33,566 bases of DNA from Rhodoplanes sp. (GTDB lineage Bacteria > Pseudomonadota > Alphaproteobacteria > Rhizobiales > Xanthobacteraceae). The notes beneath the pieces were generated by a model. It saw only the letters and a program-made list of their open reading frames with translations. It was not told where the DNA came from and searched no databases. The stretch spans positions 1 through 33,566 of the forward strand of contig NZ_JACAAX010000059.1 of the NCBI RefSeq assembly GCF_013377085.1, given 5' to 3'. The translations under genes were made by a program, and so were the position numbers. This document shows, in pieces, positions 233 to 4,291 of the stretch. The stretch's first letter is position 1; each line of letters begins with the position of its first letter.

Positions 233-779
233 GAAATGGTCCCCGTGCTCCGGATGCCGACTCGATACTCGTACTCGTACGCAAACTCGTACGCAGGCAT
301 CCGCGGCGCGCGTCGAAACGCGCGTCGTTCCACCAAGCGCTCCAGGCGCTCCGCGAACGCGACGACGATCCCGGCGTGACGATACGCTCGACACGACGAC
401 GAAGCCGCCGCGATGACGATGTCGATGTCGCGATGTGTGGTGTGTGTTCGAGCTCCCCCTGTCCCCGGGTAAAACCGTGACTCTGCAATTTGTCCACTTT
501 GTGATCGGCTCTAAGAATTCGTAACGCGAAGTGTCTTGCATGACCGGCTTTTGCACCGGCAACGCCGAGCAAATCGTTGGTGCCGTCCAGCAGAGACTCG
601 CGGAAAAATCGCTTTCATCTTGTGACAAATCTTATTTGCTCGCGCGCAGTTGATGCCGATTTTCCCGCATGCGCGCAGACGGTGCTCCGCTGCGTCGTCG
701 GCGATGACGACGTGTCCGCAACGAGCGGACTCGCGCTTGTGGAGAAAAGTGCAGATCCGAAAATCAGTTGCACCCGACT
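233..779. other. Non-coding stretch, no gene seen
   Basis: This stretch has lower GC and no ORF with convincing codon bias in any frame. It holds a short tandem direct repeat (ACTCGTACGCA at 273-283 and again at 285-295, with a related ACTCG just before). Promoter elements for the minus-strand exported protein probably lie at its left end, but none stands out. I see no tRNA or other structured RNA here. Confidence 0.4.
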
Positions 780-850
780 CCGCTCGTCCCCGCGAAAGCG
801 GGGACCCAGCACAAAATGAACTGGATTCCCGCTTACGCGGGAATGAGCGG
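780..850 (+). repeat. 71-bp bipartite palindromic repeat, copy A
   Basis: The element has two adjacent perfect hairpins: GTCCCCGC/GCGGGGAC with a GAAA loop, then TTCCCGC/GCGGGAA with a TTAC loop. They are separated by a short linker that itself carries CCCAG and CTGG. The ends are CCGCTCGT and ATGAGCGG, which are nearly inverted. The same 71-bp architecture recurs at 3656-3726, and half of it recurs inverted at 4105-4134. The form resembles the REP/BIME class of dispersed palindromes. It sits upstream of the nuclease remnant exactly as copy B sits upstream of the intact nuclease. Confidence 0.85.
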
Positions 851-912
851 AAGGCCAGACGCGCCGTTCTGAATTCGGCGCCGATGCGCGACCAGGCCCA
901 GGAGCCGCAACG

Positions 913-1050
913 GTGACCAGTCACTGTGTGTATCGTCGCGAGTCGACCGATCGGCACGTTCTGCAGCGGCACGACCGACGATCTCGTCCGCGGCTTGGGA
1001 GCACCGGACCGGGGTCGTGCCGAGCTTCACCAAACAAGACGGCGTGCCCG
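913..1050 (+). pseudogene. Decayed GIY-YIG nuclease gene (5' half only)
   Basis: The DNA from about 875 aligns with the intact nuclease locus starting at 3770. The shared leader reads TCGGCGCC-x-ATGCGCG, followed by a CCAGGAGC ribosome-binding region, a GTG start (913 here, 3813 there), CGGCACGTT, and ACCGACGATCT-x-GTCCGC encoding the TDDLVR motif. Similarity fades after GGCGTG near 1046. The reading frame is broken: the start and the TDDLVR segment lie in different frames. The 3' half with the metal-binding Glu and the downstream inverted repeat is gone. This fossil also extends the pentapeptide ORF artificially upstream, which is why that gene's start is placed at 1139. Confidence 0.75.
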
Positions 1051-1138
1051 TCGGACCCAAATTCGGGAAACCACACGCAACGCTTGCGATGTCATCGAAT
1101 TACCATCACACTCGATCCGTCTCGGACCGAGGCAGACT

Positions 1139-3292
1139 ATGACGGACAAAAAGATCGACCCTTACGACGTCGAGGCGCTGGAAAGGTCGCTGAACGATTC
1201 GGCGACGCGCGTCTCGACCATCTGGGTGAGCTTTCTGATCTTCGGGCTCTATCTCGTCATCGCCGCCGGCACGGTGACGCACCGCCAGCTTTTCCTGGAA
1301 GAGCCGGTCAAGCTTCCGGTCCTCAACATCGACCTGCCGCTGGTCGGCTTCTTCTTCCTCGCGCCGATCCTATTCGTGATCTTCCACGCCTACGTGCTGC
1401 TGCAGGTGCTGCTGCTGGGCCGGACAGCGGCAGCTTATAATGAGGCAGTCGATCGCGCCGTGAAACCGCCGCCCGGCAACGCCACGATGCGCCAACGCCT
1501 CGCCAACACGCTGTTCGCCCAAATCTTCGCCGGATCGCCGCGAGAGCGCGACGGCTGGCTCGGGCGACTTTTGAGATCGATGGCCTGGCTGACGCTGGCG
1601 ATCGCGCCGGTGCTGGTTCTGCTGGTCTTCCAGTTCAAGTTCCTGCCCTACCACAGCCACCTCGTGACATGGACGCACCGGGTGCTGATCCTCGTGGAAC
1701 TGGGGGCCGTTTTCCTGCTTTGGCCCCTCGCACTCGATCCGAAGCGCGACATCGAGTGGCTTCGTGTGGTCAAGAGCCCGTTCATATCGGCCGCGGCACT
1801 GCTCTACGTCGTCGTCGCCCTGTCGCTGCTCACGTTCCCCGGCGAACCCCATGTCAATCAATTCGCCGGCCAGCCAGTCGATGCCGTGCAGTGCACGCGG
1901 TGGTTTTTTATCCGTGCGGATCCGAATTCTCTAGCCCTCGGGAGAGATTGGGTTCGCATTCTGTCATTCGACCGCCTCGACTTGCCGCGCATCGATGTCG
2001 TCGACGACGAAAAACTTGCGAAAATCGAGAAAGCCGCATCCGACAGGAATCTGCCTCCATATGGAGGCGAGCGAACGCGTAATTTTCGCGACCGCGATCT
2101 CAATTGCAGCGACCTCTCGTTTGCCGACCTTCGTCGGGTCGATCTAGCGGATGCGCGGATCTCTGGGGCACGTCTGGATGGGGCTGACCTTCAAGGCGCA
2201 TCCCTCGATCGCGCTCAGCTTCAGAGAACATTCCTATTATACGCCCAGCTTGAACAAGCCTCTCTCGATGAAGCCCAGCTTCAGGGCGCAACTCTTGAAC
2301 GCGCCAATCTTCAGGGCGCATCGCTCACTTTTGCGCAACTTCAGGGGGCAGCCCTCCAATATGCCGAGCTTCCGGGAGCAAATTTGGGGTATGCGGCGCT
2401 TCAGCACGCGTCCCTCTTTCAAGCGCAGTTGCAGGGCGCCAATCTGTTCAGAGCGAGGCTTCACGGAGCCGCCCTTCAAAATGCCCGACTGGAAGGGGCA
2501 TCTCTCGACGGCGCCGAGCTTCATGGAGCATTGTTGCACAACGCCAAACTGCAGGGAGCATCTCTTGTTGTCGCCGAGCTTCAGGGCGCCGACCTGACCA
2601 ATAGCACGATGGCATACACCAATTTATCGGGCGTCTACGTCTGGCGAACAAAAAATGCGATGTGCCGCGACGCACGTGTGGGCCATTATGAAGCAAACTT
2701 CGTTTTTTCATCCCGGGCGGTATATTCGGCGGGGTACGTTACGATGCGCGTGGACAAACCCGTTCCGATCTTTTTACCACCCCTTACCCCGAGATACGAA
2801 CCCGACAACCCTGTTCCGATGGCGCTCGACGTAATTGAGTTATTTATCAAAAGTTCCATCGCGAGCATTATAGACAAAGAGCAGCAATACGAGGCGGAAC
2901 AGCGCATGCGGGCCGCCATTGTTGTCGATCCGGCCAAGCACGACGGGCCGGAAGAAGGGGACGTCTGGCGCGCCTGCGCCGAGGCCTCGGCTAAAGTTTC
3001 CCAGGCAGATTTTGATAGAATGCATGCTGCATATCTACGTGCTCTCGGCTGCGACGCCAGGGAACACCGACAAGCTATTGCTAAAGGCATCATCCGCAAT
3101 TGGATTTCATATAGAGAGGAGCGCCGCGCATTCTCCGCCCAACTCGCTCGTGGCCTGCTCGGCGAAGACGGCAAGTCCTGCGCCGCAACCAAGGACCTCG
3201 ACGACGGCTACAAGGAGCGCCTGCACGCCGCCATCGCGGCCGCGACGACCAATCCCGAAGTGCAGGCGCCATCCGCGGAATCGGGACGGTGA
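1139..3292 (+). CDS. Membrane-anchored pentapeptide-repeat protein
   Basis: The product is 717 aa. Residues 1-24 are hydrophilic, then five predicted membrane segments follow (about 25-45, 68-93, 149-168, 180-199, 215-233). A linker leads to a pentapeptide-repeat domain at about residues 315-497, built of A(D/N/Q/E)LQGAxL-type units with a marked ten-residue period. A C-terminal non-repeat domain of about 220 residues contains isolated Cys residues. Pentapeptide repeats form a right-handed quadrilateral beta-helix; known members range from DNA-gyrase mimics to scaffolds, so the role here is unknown. The start at 1139 is preferred (GAGG upstream); the frame stays open to 926, but that part derives from the decayed nuclease gene. 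The repeat region is less GC-rich than the flanks, hinting at internal repeat expansion or transfer. It appears to be transcribed alone, with the DUF433 gene 44 bp downstream. Confidence 0.85.
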   Translation: MTDKKIDPYDVEALERSLNDSATRVSTIWVSFLIFGLYLVIAAGTVTHRQLFLEEPVKLPVLNIDLPLVGFFFLAPILFVIFHAYVLLQVLLLGRTAAAYNEAVDRAVKPPPGNATMRQRLANTLFAQIFAGSPRERDGWLGRLLRSMAWLTLAIAPVLVLLVFQFKFLPYHSHLVTWTHRVLILVELGAVFLLWPLALDPKRDIEWLRVVKSPFISAAALLYVVVALSLLTFPGEPHVNQFAGQPVDAVQCTRWFFIRADPNSLALGRDWVRILSFDRLDLPRIDVVDDEKLAKIEKAASDRNLPPYGGERTRNFRDRDLNCSDLSFADLRRVDLADARISGARLDGADLQGASLDRAQLQRTFLLYAQLEQASLDEAQLQGATLERANLQGASLTFAQLQGAALQYAELPGANLGYAALQHASLFQAQLQGANLFRARLHGAALQNARLEGASLDGAELHGALLHNAKLQGASLVVAELQGADLTNSTMAYTNLSGVYVWRTKNAMCRDARVGHYEANFVFSSRAVYSAGYVTMRVDKPVPIFLPPLTPRYEPDNPVPMALDVIELFIKSSIASIIDKEQQYEAEQRMRAAIVVDPAKHDGPEEGDVWRACAEASAKVSQADFDRMHAAYLRALGCDAREHRQAIAKGIIRNWISYREERRAFSAQLARGLLGEDGKSCAATKDLDDGYKERLHAAIAAATTNPEVQAPSAESGR

Positions 3293-3570: not shown

Positions 3571-3596
3571 CGACAGGATACTGGACCCAACGATTT

Positions 3597-3617
3597 CCGC
3601 TCGTCCCCGCGCAAGCG
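3597..3617 (+). repeat. Truncated copy of the palindromic repeat end
   Basis: The bases CCGCTCGTCCCCGCG, followed by CAAGCG, match the left end and half of the first hairpin of the 71-bp element. The match stops at position 3617. It lies 39 bp before the complete copy at 3656, in the same orientation, so the locus has received this sequence more than once or has been partly duplicated. Confidence 0.6.
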
Positions 3618-3655
3618 CATAGGCGCCAACATAGCGGCGCCGGGCCTTTGCTTTT

Positions 3656-3726
3656 CCGCTCGTCCCCGCGAAGGCGGGGACCCAGCGCATAAGGAGCTGG
3701 TTTCCCGCTTGCGCGGGAATGAGCGG
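3656..3726 (+). repeat. 71-bp bipartite palindromic repeat, copy B
   Basis: It has the same length and order as copy A: hairpin GTCCCCGC/GCGGGGAC (loop GAAG), linker with CCCAG and CTGG, hairpin TTCCCGC/GCGGGAA (loop TTGC), right end ATGAGCGG. The stems are identical to copy A and most differences lie in loops and linker, as expected if the fold is under selection or is used for copying. Its first 30 bases also form the left inverted repeat of the nuclease unit. Confidence 0.85.
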
Positions 3727-3812
3727 AGGGTGGGGTCTCTGTCCGAGGATTGCGGTGTACGTCGTTATATCGGCGCCTATGCGCGCAAGCGGGGCCCCAG
3801 GAGCAGCGTTCC

Positions 3813-4100
3813 GTGAGCTTCTACGTCTACATGCTGGCGAGCCGACGAAACGGCACGTTGTATGTCGGCATGACCGACGATCTGGTCCGCCGGGTCTGGG
3901 AGCACCGGGCTGGAGTGGTTCCCGGCTTCACCAGGAGGTACGGCGTGAAGATCCTGGTCTGGTACGAGCAGCATGCGAACCGCGAATCGGCCTTTCTGCG
4001 GGAGAGGCAGATCAAGAAATGGAACCGCGCCTGGAAGATGCAGCTCATCGACGCTCGGAACGGTTCATGGCGGGACCTTTGGGAGGAGATCGCGCAGTGA
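3813..4100 (+). CDS. Small GIY-YIG nuclease family protein (UPF0213-like)
   Basis: The product is 95 aa from a GTG start with AGGAG nine bases upstream. The frame is open to 3750, but homologous proteins begin at SFYVYML. The GIY-YIG core is complete: Y4-V-Y6 and L16-Y-V-G19 form the two short strands, R26/R27 and H31 lie in the first helix, and E64 in the R-E-R-Q-I-K-K-W segment is the expected metal ligand. The end is a basic region plus W-x-D-L, typical of the stand-alone single-domain group. The family cleaves DNA in characterised relatives, but the cellular role of these short members is not settled. The gene stands alone between inverted repeats and has a decayed sister at 913-1050. Catalytic residues are intact, so it is probably functional. 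Confidence 0.9.
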   Translation: MSFYVYMLASRRNGTLYVGMTDDLVRRVWEHRAGVVPGFTRRYGVKILVWYEQHANRESAFLRERQIKKWNRAWKMQLIDARNGSWRDLWEEIAQ

Positions 4101-4104
4101 AGAC

Positions 4105-4134
4105 CTGGGTCCCCGCTTTCGCGGGGACGAGCGG
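4105..4134 (-). repeat. Inverted half-copy of the palindromic repeat
   Basis: Its reverse complement matches the first 30 bases of copy B with one change (GAAA versus GAAG in the hairpin loop). It starts four bases after the nuclease stop codon and may also serve as that gene's terminator hairpin. It lies about 160 bp before thrS. Confidence 0.8.
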
Positions 4135-4291
4135 GGGGGGGTCGGCCAAGCGAACAATCGTCGCCCCCGCCGCAGCCCTGCCTCCCCGCGCCCCGCCTTG
4201 CGCTCTCGCCCGGCCCTGCTATATGCCTGCGCCGTGAGAACAATCCGCTTACCTGCGTTCGTAGGCAGCGAGTGAGCAACAGGAGCTTTCA

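Follow-up and report, generated by a model that had tools for sequence, protein, structure and literature searches.

REPINs are described in the available text of PMC3116915 and PMC8266576 as inverted doublets of REP sequences that are tied to specific HuH-type transposases, the RAYTs. A second group, the CGTC-REP superfamily, is characterised in the accessible part of PMC3733652 by a CGTC (or TGTC/CCTC) tag, a stem of 8-9 bp, a loop of 4-5 nt and a CCA tail; these repeats mostly form head-head dimers with the tags outside, show an alpha-proteobacterial bias, are equated with dRS3 in Neisseria and have Azospirillum lipoferum and Sinorhizobium meliloti among their hosts. The same part of PMC3733652 reports no transposase genes associated with the CGTC repeats, which apparently lack a dedicated transposase, and leaves their mobilisation open; its authors suggest that the repeats may have lost an enzyme of their own at an early stage, or that they are served by transposases of many kinds. 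A link between GIY-YIG enzymes and REPs was absent from the titles and abstract openings of the papers listed in searches of open-licence PubMed Central (a collection without bioRxiv and lacking most subscription journals), and the string "GIY" does not occur in the main text of PMC3733652, PMC12306157, PMC6006769, PMC3116915 or PMC8266576.

The window analysed here is one entire contig, 33,566 bases, of the 6.48-Mb genome of Rhodoplanes sp. It holds a small GIY-YIG nuclease gene placed between REPs of the family we call R1 (Table 1). A previous sequence-only reading had described the gene as lying between opposite copies of a hairpin-bearing 30-mer with one mismatch, and this is indeed what we find, as 3656-3685 and 4105-4134 form inverted 30-nt arms that are 97% complementary and 419 nt apart. 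The right copy also begins where that reading put it, four bases past the stop codon. The left copy does lie within a double hairpin as proposed, but it is not the left end of the element, because this double hairpin sits inside a 164-bp insertion; the left end is instead a REP which the insertion has split in two, and a 10-bp direct repeat, CGCGCAAGCG, flanks the insertion at 3608-3617 and 3782-3791. As judged from the sequence, the underlying unit in the window is REP(+)-nuclease-REP(-).

Table 1. Positions in the window of the nuclease gene, its REPs and the related features.
Feature	Position	Strand	Remarks
Second R1 double hairpin	779..854	+	89% identical
Decayed GIY-YIG remnant	about 926..1052	+	Frameshifted, truncated, two frames; just downstream of the 779-854 hairpin
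Element's own left REP, left part	3596..3617	+	
Insertion splitting the left REP	3618..3781	.	164 bp; inverted termini CATAGGCGCC/GGCGCCTATG
REPIN-like R1 double hairpin within the 164-bp insertion	3655..3730	+	REPs 3656-3685 (+), 3697-3726 (-)
Element's own left REP, right part	3792..3800	+	CCAG tail ends 12 nt ahead of the start codon
GIY-YIG nuclease gene	3813..4100	+	GTG start, 95 aa, UPF0213-like, Pfam PF01541
Right REP	4105..4134	-	4 nt past the stop; CCA tail toward the gene

Folded as single-stranded DNA, the double hairpin inside the insertion reached -30.4 kcal/mol (z -6.5). The insertion that carries it resembles a small mobile element of another kind, and a search with its termini gave only scattered single partial matches at other loci of the same genome. 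Further upstream, the double hairpin and the gene remnant spanning 779-1052 probably represent an older second copy of the same system, judging by their sequence; the C-terminal half of GIY-YIG was not found in the remnant. The ORF at 926-3292 contains pentapeptide repeats (PF00805, 117 bits) and lies upstream of a DUF433 gene and thrS. Directly upstream of thrS there is a 43-nt block (4243-4285) that by eye is the same in five genomes of the genus, where much of the intergenic sequence around it has diverged; it is possibly a thrS leader element. Searches for tRNA, tmRNA and Rfam families gave no match anywhere in the window.

The 95-aa protein matches the Pfam GIY-YIG family PF01541 with 55.9 bits against a cut-off of 22.6. 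Across 26 diverse aligned homologues six residues do not vary: Y6, Y17, R27, H31, E64 and N83. This Tyr, Tyr, Arg, His, Glu, Asn set, which is catalytic in the superfamily, together with the Pfam match places the protein in the GIY-YIG superfamily. The AlphaFold model has a pLDDT of 94, and in the Foldseek search the UPF0213 structures 1zg2 and 1ywl came first, followed by Slx1 at ranks 3-10 and the UvrC domain at rank 12, the Slx1/UvrC matches being weak (E-values 0.035-0.22). The UPF0213 entries (PDB 1zg2, 1ywl) are the closest among solved sequences and folds; they are structural-genomics entries and named hypothetical. Slx1, which acts on branched DNA according to the titles of the matched entries, and UvrC resemble the nuclease in fold and differ from it in having accessory domains. 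The dN/dS values ranged from 0.06 to 0.18 for 13 of 14 pairs (the 14th was not computable; many dS values exceeded 1 and several were saturated), a range that indicates purifying selection at the sequence level.

The R1 repeat is dispersed through the source genome. Its 19-mer core has 79 matches with at most one mismatch in the 6.48 Mb, compared with 0 and 1 for a reversed control pattern, and is therefore not a product of chance. The R1 double hairpin occupies at least 40 distinct places, 40 of 121 candidates being scored (the 44 rows included two opposite-strand repeats of places already listed and two partial 22-nt matches). The genome has three intact GIY-YIG homologues, and the two outside the window are 58% and 56% identical to the window protein. 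All three are bracketed, each by a different dispersed repeat family with at least 40 scored places apiece. One of the other homologues is bracketed by R2, a double hairpin of 107 bp; the remaining one, the C1 homologue, 56% identical to the window protein, lies between the 122-bp double hairpin R3 and a single related REP. R1 is absent from the 3.3-kb loci of both. Both R2 (40 of 281 candidates scored, many matching only part of the query) and R3 (40 of 466 scored) likewise occur in at least 40 places, and among the copies listed the three families share one layout, with CGTC-type tags outside and CCA tails inside. Several R1 double hairpins (L023, L028-L030, L033 and L034) have outer flank motifs in common, e.g. 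gatgaatcg and gtgggtcga, suggesting from sequence a larger composite repeat. The sole Y1_Tnp match found in the genome (L305, G000:C23:30072-30395) has an inverted flanking repeat around GGTGACAGTGCACT, not a CGTC-REP, and resembles a published TIRtron.

A junction of at least four helices was seen in the single-stranded folds of 18 of 29 R1, 5 of 8 R2 and 19 of 20 R3 copies taken, and in 8 of 145, 7 of 40 and 13 of 100 of the respective shuffles. We infer that such a multi-helix junction is the substrate of the nuclease; several REPINs from other species fold as long hairpins and not as multi-helix junctions. We also considered a classical insertion sequence and rejected it, as a target duplication of 4 nt or more was found in none of 28 R1 copies with both borders present and in none of 19 R3 copies.

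To see how general the arrangement is, we turned to other genomes, where 51 of 80 (the source genome counted) gave 114 GIY-YIG matches. The sequence-only reading had let its proposal depend on whether such repeats are enriched beside GIY-YIG genes, and they are. A locus was called bracketed when a repeat scoring at least 20 was common to both 400-bp flanks, and this was the case for 79 of 91 loci of the relatives (92 of the 114 matches were taken and one was removed for short flanks) and for 1 of 157 control ORFs from the same loci. Among named genomes 54 of 79 loci were bracketed compared with 8 of 259 controls. It should be noted that this set consists of the best 80 of 542 confirmed relatives less one removed, that it is mostly metagenome-assembled, with a risk of misbinning for the taxon names, that it keeps L190 and L246, in which an early stop gives a wrong downstream boundary, and that it counts L178 and L189, which seem to duplicate loci of the relatives and are left out of the motif scan below (78 loci). 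The genome titles name alpha-, beta-, gamma-, delta- and zetaproteobacteria, Nitrospirae, Dehalococcoidia, a cyanobacterium, Hydrogenedentota and candidate phyla. In a phylum sample, 17 of 25 loci were bracketed with 300-bp flanks (no control set in this sample; 5 of 30 loci were omitted as already examined), and in a plasmid collection 7 of 8 loci chosen out of 32 records, L165 being the unbracketed one. Neisseria gonorrhoeae is among the bracketed loci of that collection, and its repeats are of the dRS3 kind named in the available part of PMC3733652. The homologues unbracketed at the threshold number 12 of 91 in the relatives, 25 of 79 in the named genomes and 8 of 25 in the phylum sample.

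A scan with the motif TC[AG]-hairpin-CC[ATG], which is independent of similarity between the flanks, found REPs on both sides of the gene at 42 of 91 relatives' loci and 51 of 78 named loci, compared with 1 of 402 random placements, the downstream stretch of the named loci being 30 nt longer than in the random placements. The tails of both nearest REPs point toward the gene in 28 of the 42 and 37 of the 51 loci, respectively. At these tail-facing loci the median distance from the upstream REP to the start codon is 31 and 22 nt, and that from the stop codon to the downstream REP is about 11.5 and 4 nt.

The repeats also follow the nuclease in their sequence. Across 86 loci (the 91 less five with in-frame stops) nuclease identity correlated with the similarity of the nearby repeats (Mantel r 0.524) in the 3,562 of 3,603 cross-genome pairs whose outer surroundings are non-homologous, and none of 2000 permutations, which take no account of host kinship, reached as high a value. 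Repeats were common to 81% of 47 nuclease pairs with at least 70% identity as opposed to 1-3% of pairs below 55%, and to 13% of 52 pairs of paralogues from the same genome. Host kinship as the sole cause of the co-variation is disfavoured, since the hosts belong to many genera and a single host can have paralogues with different repeats. On this sequence evidence we regard it as established, with hardly any room for doubt, that GIY-YIG genes pair and co-vary with CGTC-type REPs. The parallel to RAYT/REP extends further than the earlier reading had drawn it, in that each nuclease has its own co-varying repeat family.

Copy number tells a similar story, with exceptions. Eight genomes, the source genome among them, have a close nuclease (identity of 62% or more, a cut-off of our own); their median number of R1-type 27-mers was 47, compared with 0 in the 72 without (Mann-Whitney p 1.4e-6), and within the family the medians were 58 (6 genomes) and 2 (42 genomes), p 1.3e-4. 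Nine of the 72 genomes without a close nuclease still hold 10-86 R1 matches, two of them from the same genus. Phylum-wide, 249 genomes were compared for matches to CGTC-1, a generic pattern. Of the 53 that have a strong homologue (best E no higher than 1.5e-30, again our cut-off), 21 had at least 5 such matches, and of the other 196, 23 did (odds ratio 4.9, p 1.2e-5). The other 32 of the 53 have fewer than 5 generic matches, and perhaps the repeats of those genomes differ. Six genomes have at least 100 CGTC-1 matches; three of these have a strong homologue, G166 has only fragments or weak matches, and G115 and G240 have none. On renewed search, 7 of 10 REP-rich genomes without a strong homologue gave no nuclease at E up to 1e-3, and G038 and G215 gave weak nuclease matches only. 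Among the nuclease-free genomes, G115 (99% complete, 179 matches) and G130 (68 matches) are near-complete and G240 is 75% complete. We regard the REP-rich genomes without nuclease as true exceptions, barring loss of the gene or a failure to detect it. As to individual genomes, the 1.5-Mb G106 holds 274 CGTC-1 matches and an open nuclease frame, and the 4.5-Mb G166 holds 753 matches, but of the nuclease it has only fragments, all at one locus, and a weak match elsewhere.

The genes do not sit at one conserved locus, an outcome on which the sequence-only reading had also made its proposal depend: only 22 of 388 pairs of nucleases at least 60% identical and from different genomes have common surroundings, and the thrS site itself is variable. 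There, the source genome and G004 have the gene, and no copy lies within 1.5 kb in G001-G003, which belong to the same genus, or in two other genomes of the family; in one further genome of the genus, 58% complete, thrS was not matched. The DUF433 gene of the window was found in none of six homologous thrS loci, and with other neighbours differing as well a rearrangement is possible at this site. In Azospirillum lipoferum 4B a REPIN-gene-REPIN unit separates sufB from sufC (L166, AZO_p3, 255506-255799), and the two genes adjoin without the unit in A. ramasamyi, A. oryzae, strain B510, A. argentinense and A. thermophilum. Shinella sp. PSBB067 (L311), too, has a bracketed homologue between these two genes, which shares 48% identity with the A. 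lipoferum one and has another REP. Either the position was hit by two insertions or the site is old, and hence the other Azospirillum records may have lost the unit.

The comparison of loci with and without the unit, which the sequence-only reading had suggested for finding empty sites and target duplications, accordingly gave presence and absence; a target duplication of 4 nt or more was not seen, and an exact empty site was resolved neither at thrS nor at suf, where the borders are unreadable because the adjoining intergenic DNA has diverged. Inheritance in place occurs too. Homologous surroundings were found for 41 locus pairs, and the C1 locus with R3 has the same surroundings in four other genomes. 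On pSymB of Sinorhizobium one REPIN is present in S. meliloti strains and missing from M103 and S. medicae, with the flanks replaced. L167 and L176 have the gene in common at one place and differ in their REPIN copies. For Rhizobium CIAT894, the flanks were not continuous across the gene in the other records listed.

We propose that the unit REP(+)-GIY-YIG gene-REP(-), about 400 bp, would be a minimal autonomous element, and that the dispersed double hairpins, REP(+)-short spacer-REP(-), would be non-autonomous, MITE-like derivatives of it. The nuclease, with its UPF0213/Slx1/UvrC-like fold, would recognise the hairpin or four-way junction of its own repeat family, formed in single-stranded or extruded DNA, and cut at the REP borders, whereupon repair or replication would copy the unit into new sites without target duplication. 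GIY-YIG enzymes hydrolyse DNA and strand joining is not known for them, so integration would require host functions. Each nuclease would serve its own repeat family, and several nuclease/REP pairs could thus coexist in one genome. The sequence-only reading had speculated that the nuclease mobilises, or is mobilised with, REP-like hairpins in parallel to RAYT/REP; our results support this proposal, and neither outcome that it had named as a refutation came about. The sequences themselves show the bracketing, the compact inverted layout, the co-variation of nuclease and repeat, the relation to copy number, the purifying selection and the presence or absence at sites, and binding, cleavage and dispersal driven by cleavage are what we infer.

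On balance we consider it rather probable, from the sequence comparisons, that the nuclease disperses CGTC-type REPs, which would make a RAYT/REPIN-like system with an unrelated enzyme. Free-standing GIY-YIG homing endonucleases exist, and these small selfish GIY-YIG genes offer another explanation, in which the nuclease targets the REPIN. Empty REPINs would be cut in their spacer and the gene would enter them through repair over the REP arms, the REPINs themselves being spread by something else. The gene does occupy the spacer position of a REPIN with the REP tails toward it, co-variation of nuclease and target would follow, and the REP-rich genomes without nuclease also fit. Efficient homing should however fill many places, and the source genome has a single intact gene for each family, although at least 40 places were scored for every one of them; we consider homing unlikely. 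We give a marginally lower probability to a domesticated role in maintenance or regulation, in which the nuclease trims or resolves REP hairpins or cruciforms, or the end hairpins control its own transcript, with no dispersal. The purifying selection, the frequent inheritance in place, the weak fold similarity to Slx1 and the REP a few nucleotides past the stop all agree with such a role, and RAYTs are likewise called domesticated in the available text of PMC8266576; taken alone, domestication leaves unexplained why copy number tracks a close nuclease and why the REPIN stands in a MITE-like relation to the full element.

That RAYT-type Y1 transposases mobilise CGTC-REPs in trans has in its favour one Y1_Tnp match in the genome, but this single match is flanked by an unrelated inverted repeat, for which we rejected the explanation, and Di Nocera et al. 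(2013) describe, in the part of PMC3733652 available, no tyrosine transposase gene flanked by CGTC repeats; we rate it as very improbable. Slightly more improbable still is coincidence, with REPs accumulating in intergenic DNA and the small gene a passenger. REPs are mostly intergenic, the gene is small, and some control ORFs are bracketed too (1/157 and 8/259), but an enrichment of about 20-fold or more over control ORFs and random placements led us to reject passive accumulation, and the cognate specificity also speaks against it.

Dispersal by the nuclease, the reading we prefer, puts the system close to REPIN-RAYT (REPtron) in several respects: short hairpin repeats, inverted doublets scattered genome-wide, a dedicated nuclease gene with repeats of its own family on either side, cognate pairing, few genes and many gene-less copies, and in-place inheritance of some nuclease copies, a tendency of RAYT genes too, which the available text of PMC8266576 calls domesticated. 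On the other hand the enzyme is GIY-YIG here and a HuH/Y1 tyrosine transposase there, and the repeats are CGTC/CCA-type here and GTAG-type there. The GIY-YIG/REP system would work like REPIN-RAYT yet is no member of it, as the enzyme differs. Free-standing GIY-YIG homing endonucleases are likewise small selfish genes; here REPs bracket the gene and there are many gene-less copies.

With regard to the CGTC-REPs, R2 and R3 start with CGTC/GTC, like the repeats of many relatives, and so carry the tag; R1 has GCTC, a variant not named in the accessible part of PMC3733652. R1 agrees in stem, loop and tail (8-bp stem, 4-nt loop, CCAG tail), whereas R2 and R3 agree in their CCA tails and depart from the definition in stem length, their stems being longer and partly bulged. 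The listed copies of all three families are head-head dimers, and their alpha-proteobacterial host likewise suits the superfamily. The available text of PMC3733652 gives no transposase partner and here a dedicated nuclease is proposed; as this partner is a nuclease and not a classical transposase, it adds to the published description and membership is not excluded.

The sequence comparisons suggest that CGTC-REPs owe their spread to the nuclease, their hitherto missing partner, in a pairing that recurs in many distant bacteria. More broadly, we see about an even chance that GIY-YIG proteins are the autonomous enzymes of a minimal REP-nuclease-REP class that made the CGTC-REPs from alpha-proteobacteria to Neisseria (dRS3) and deeper phyla by cutting the junction or hairpin of a REP pair. 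Bacterial palindromic repeats include two large superfamilies, of which the CGTC-REPs form one, and with a nuclease and matching repeats at hand across genomes their mobilisation becomes a biochemical question. If the nuclease does disperse REPs, partnerships of REPs and enzymes would have arisen at least twice, with unrelated nucleases, and these would be the first known case of DNA-only elements in bacteria that a GIY-YIG enzyme disperses.
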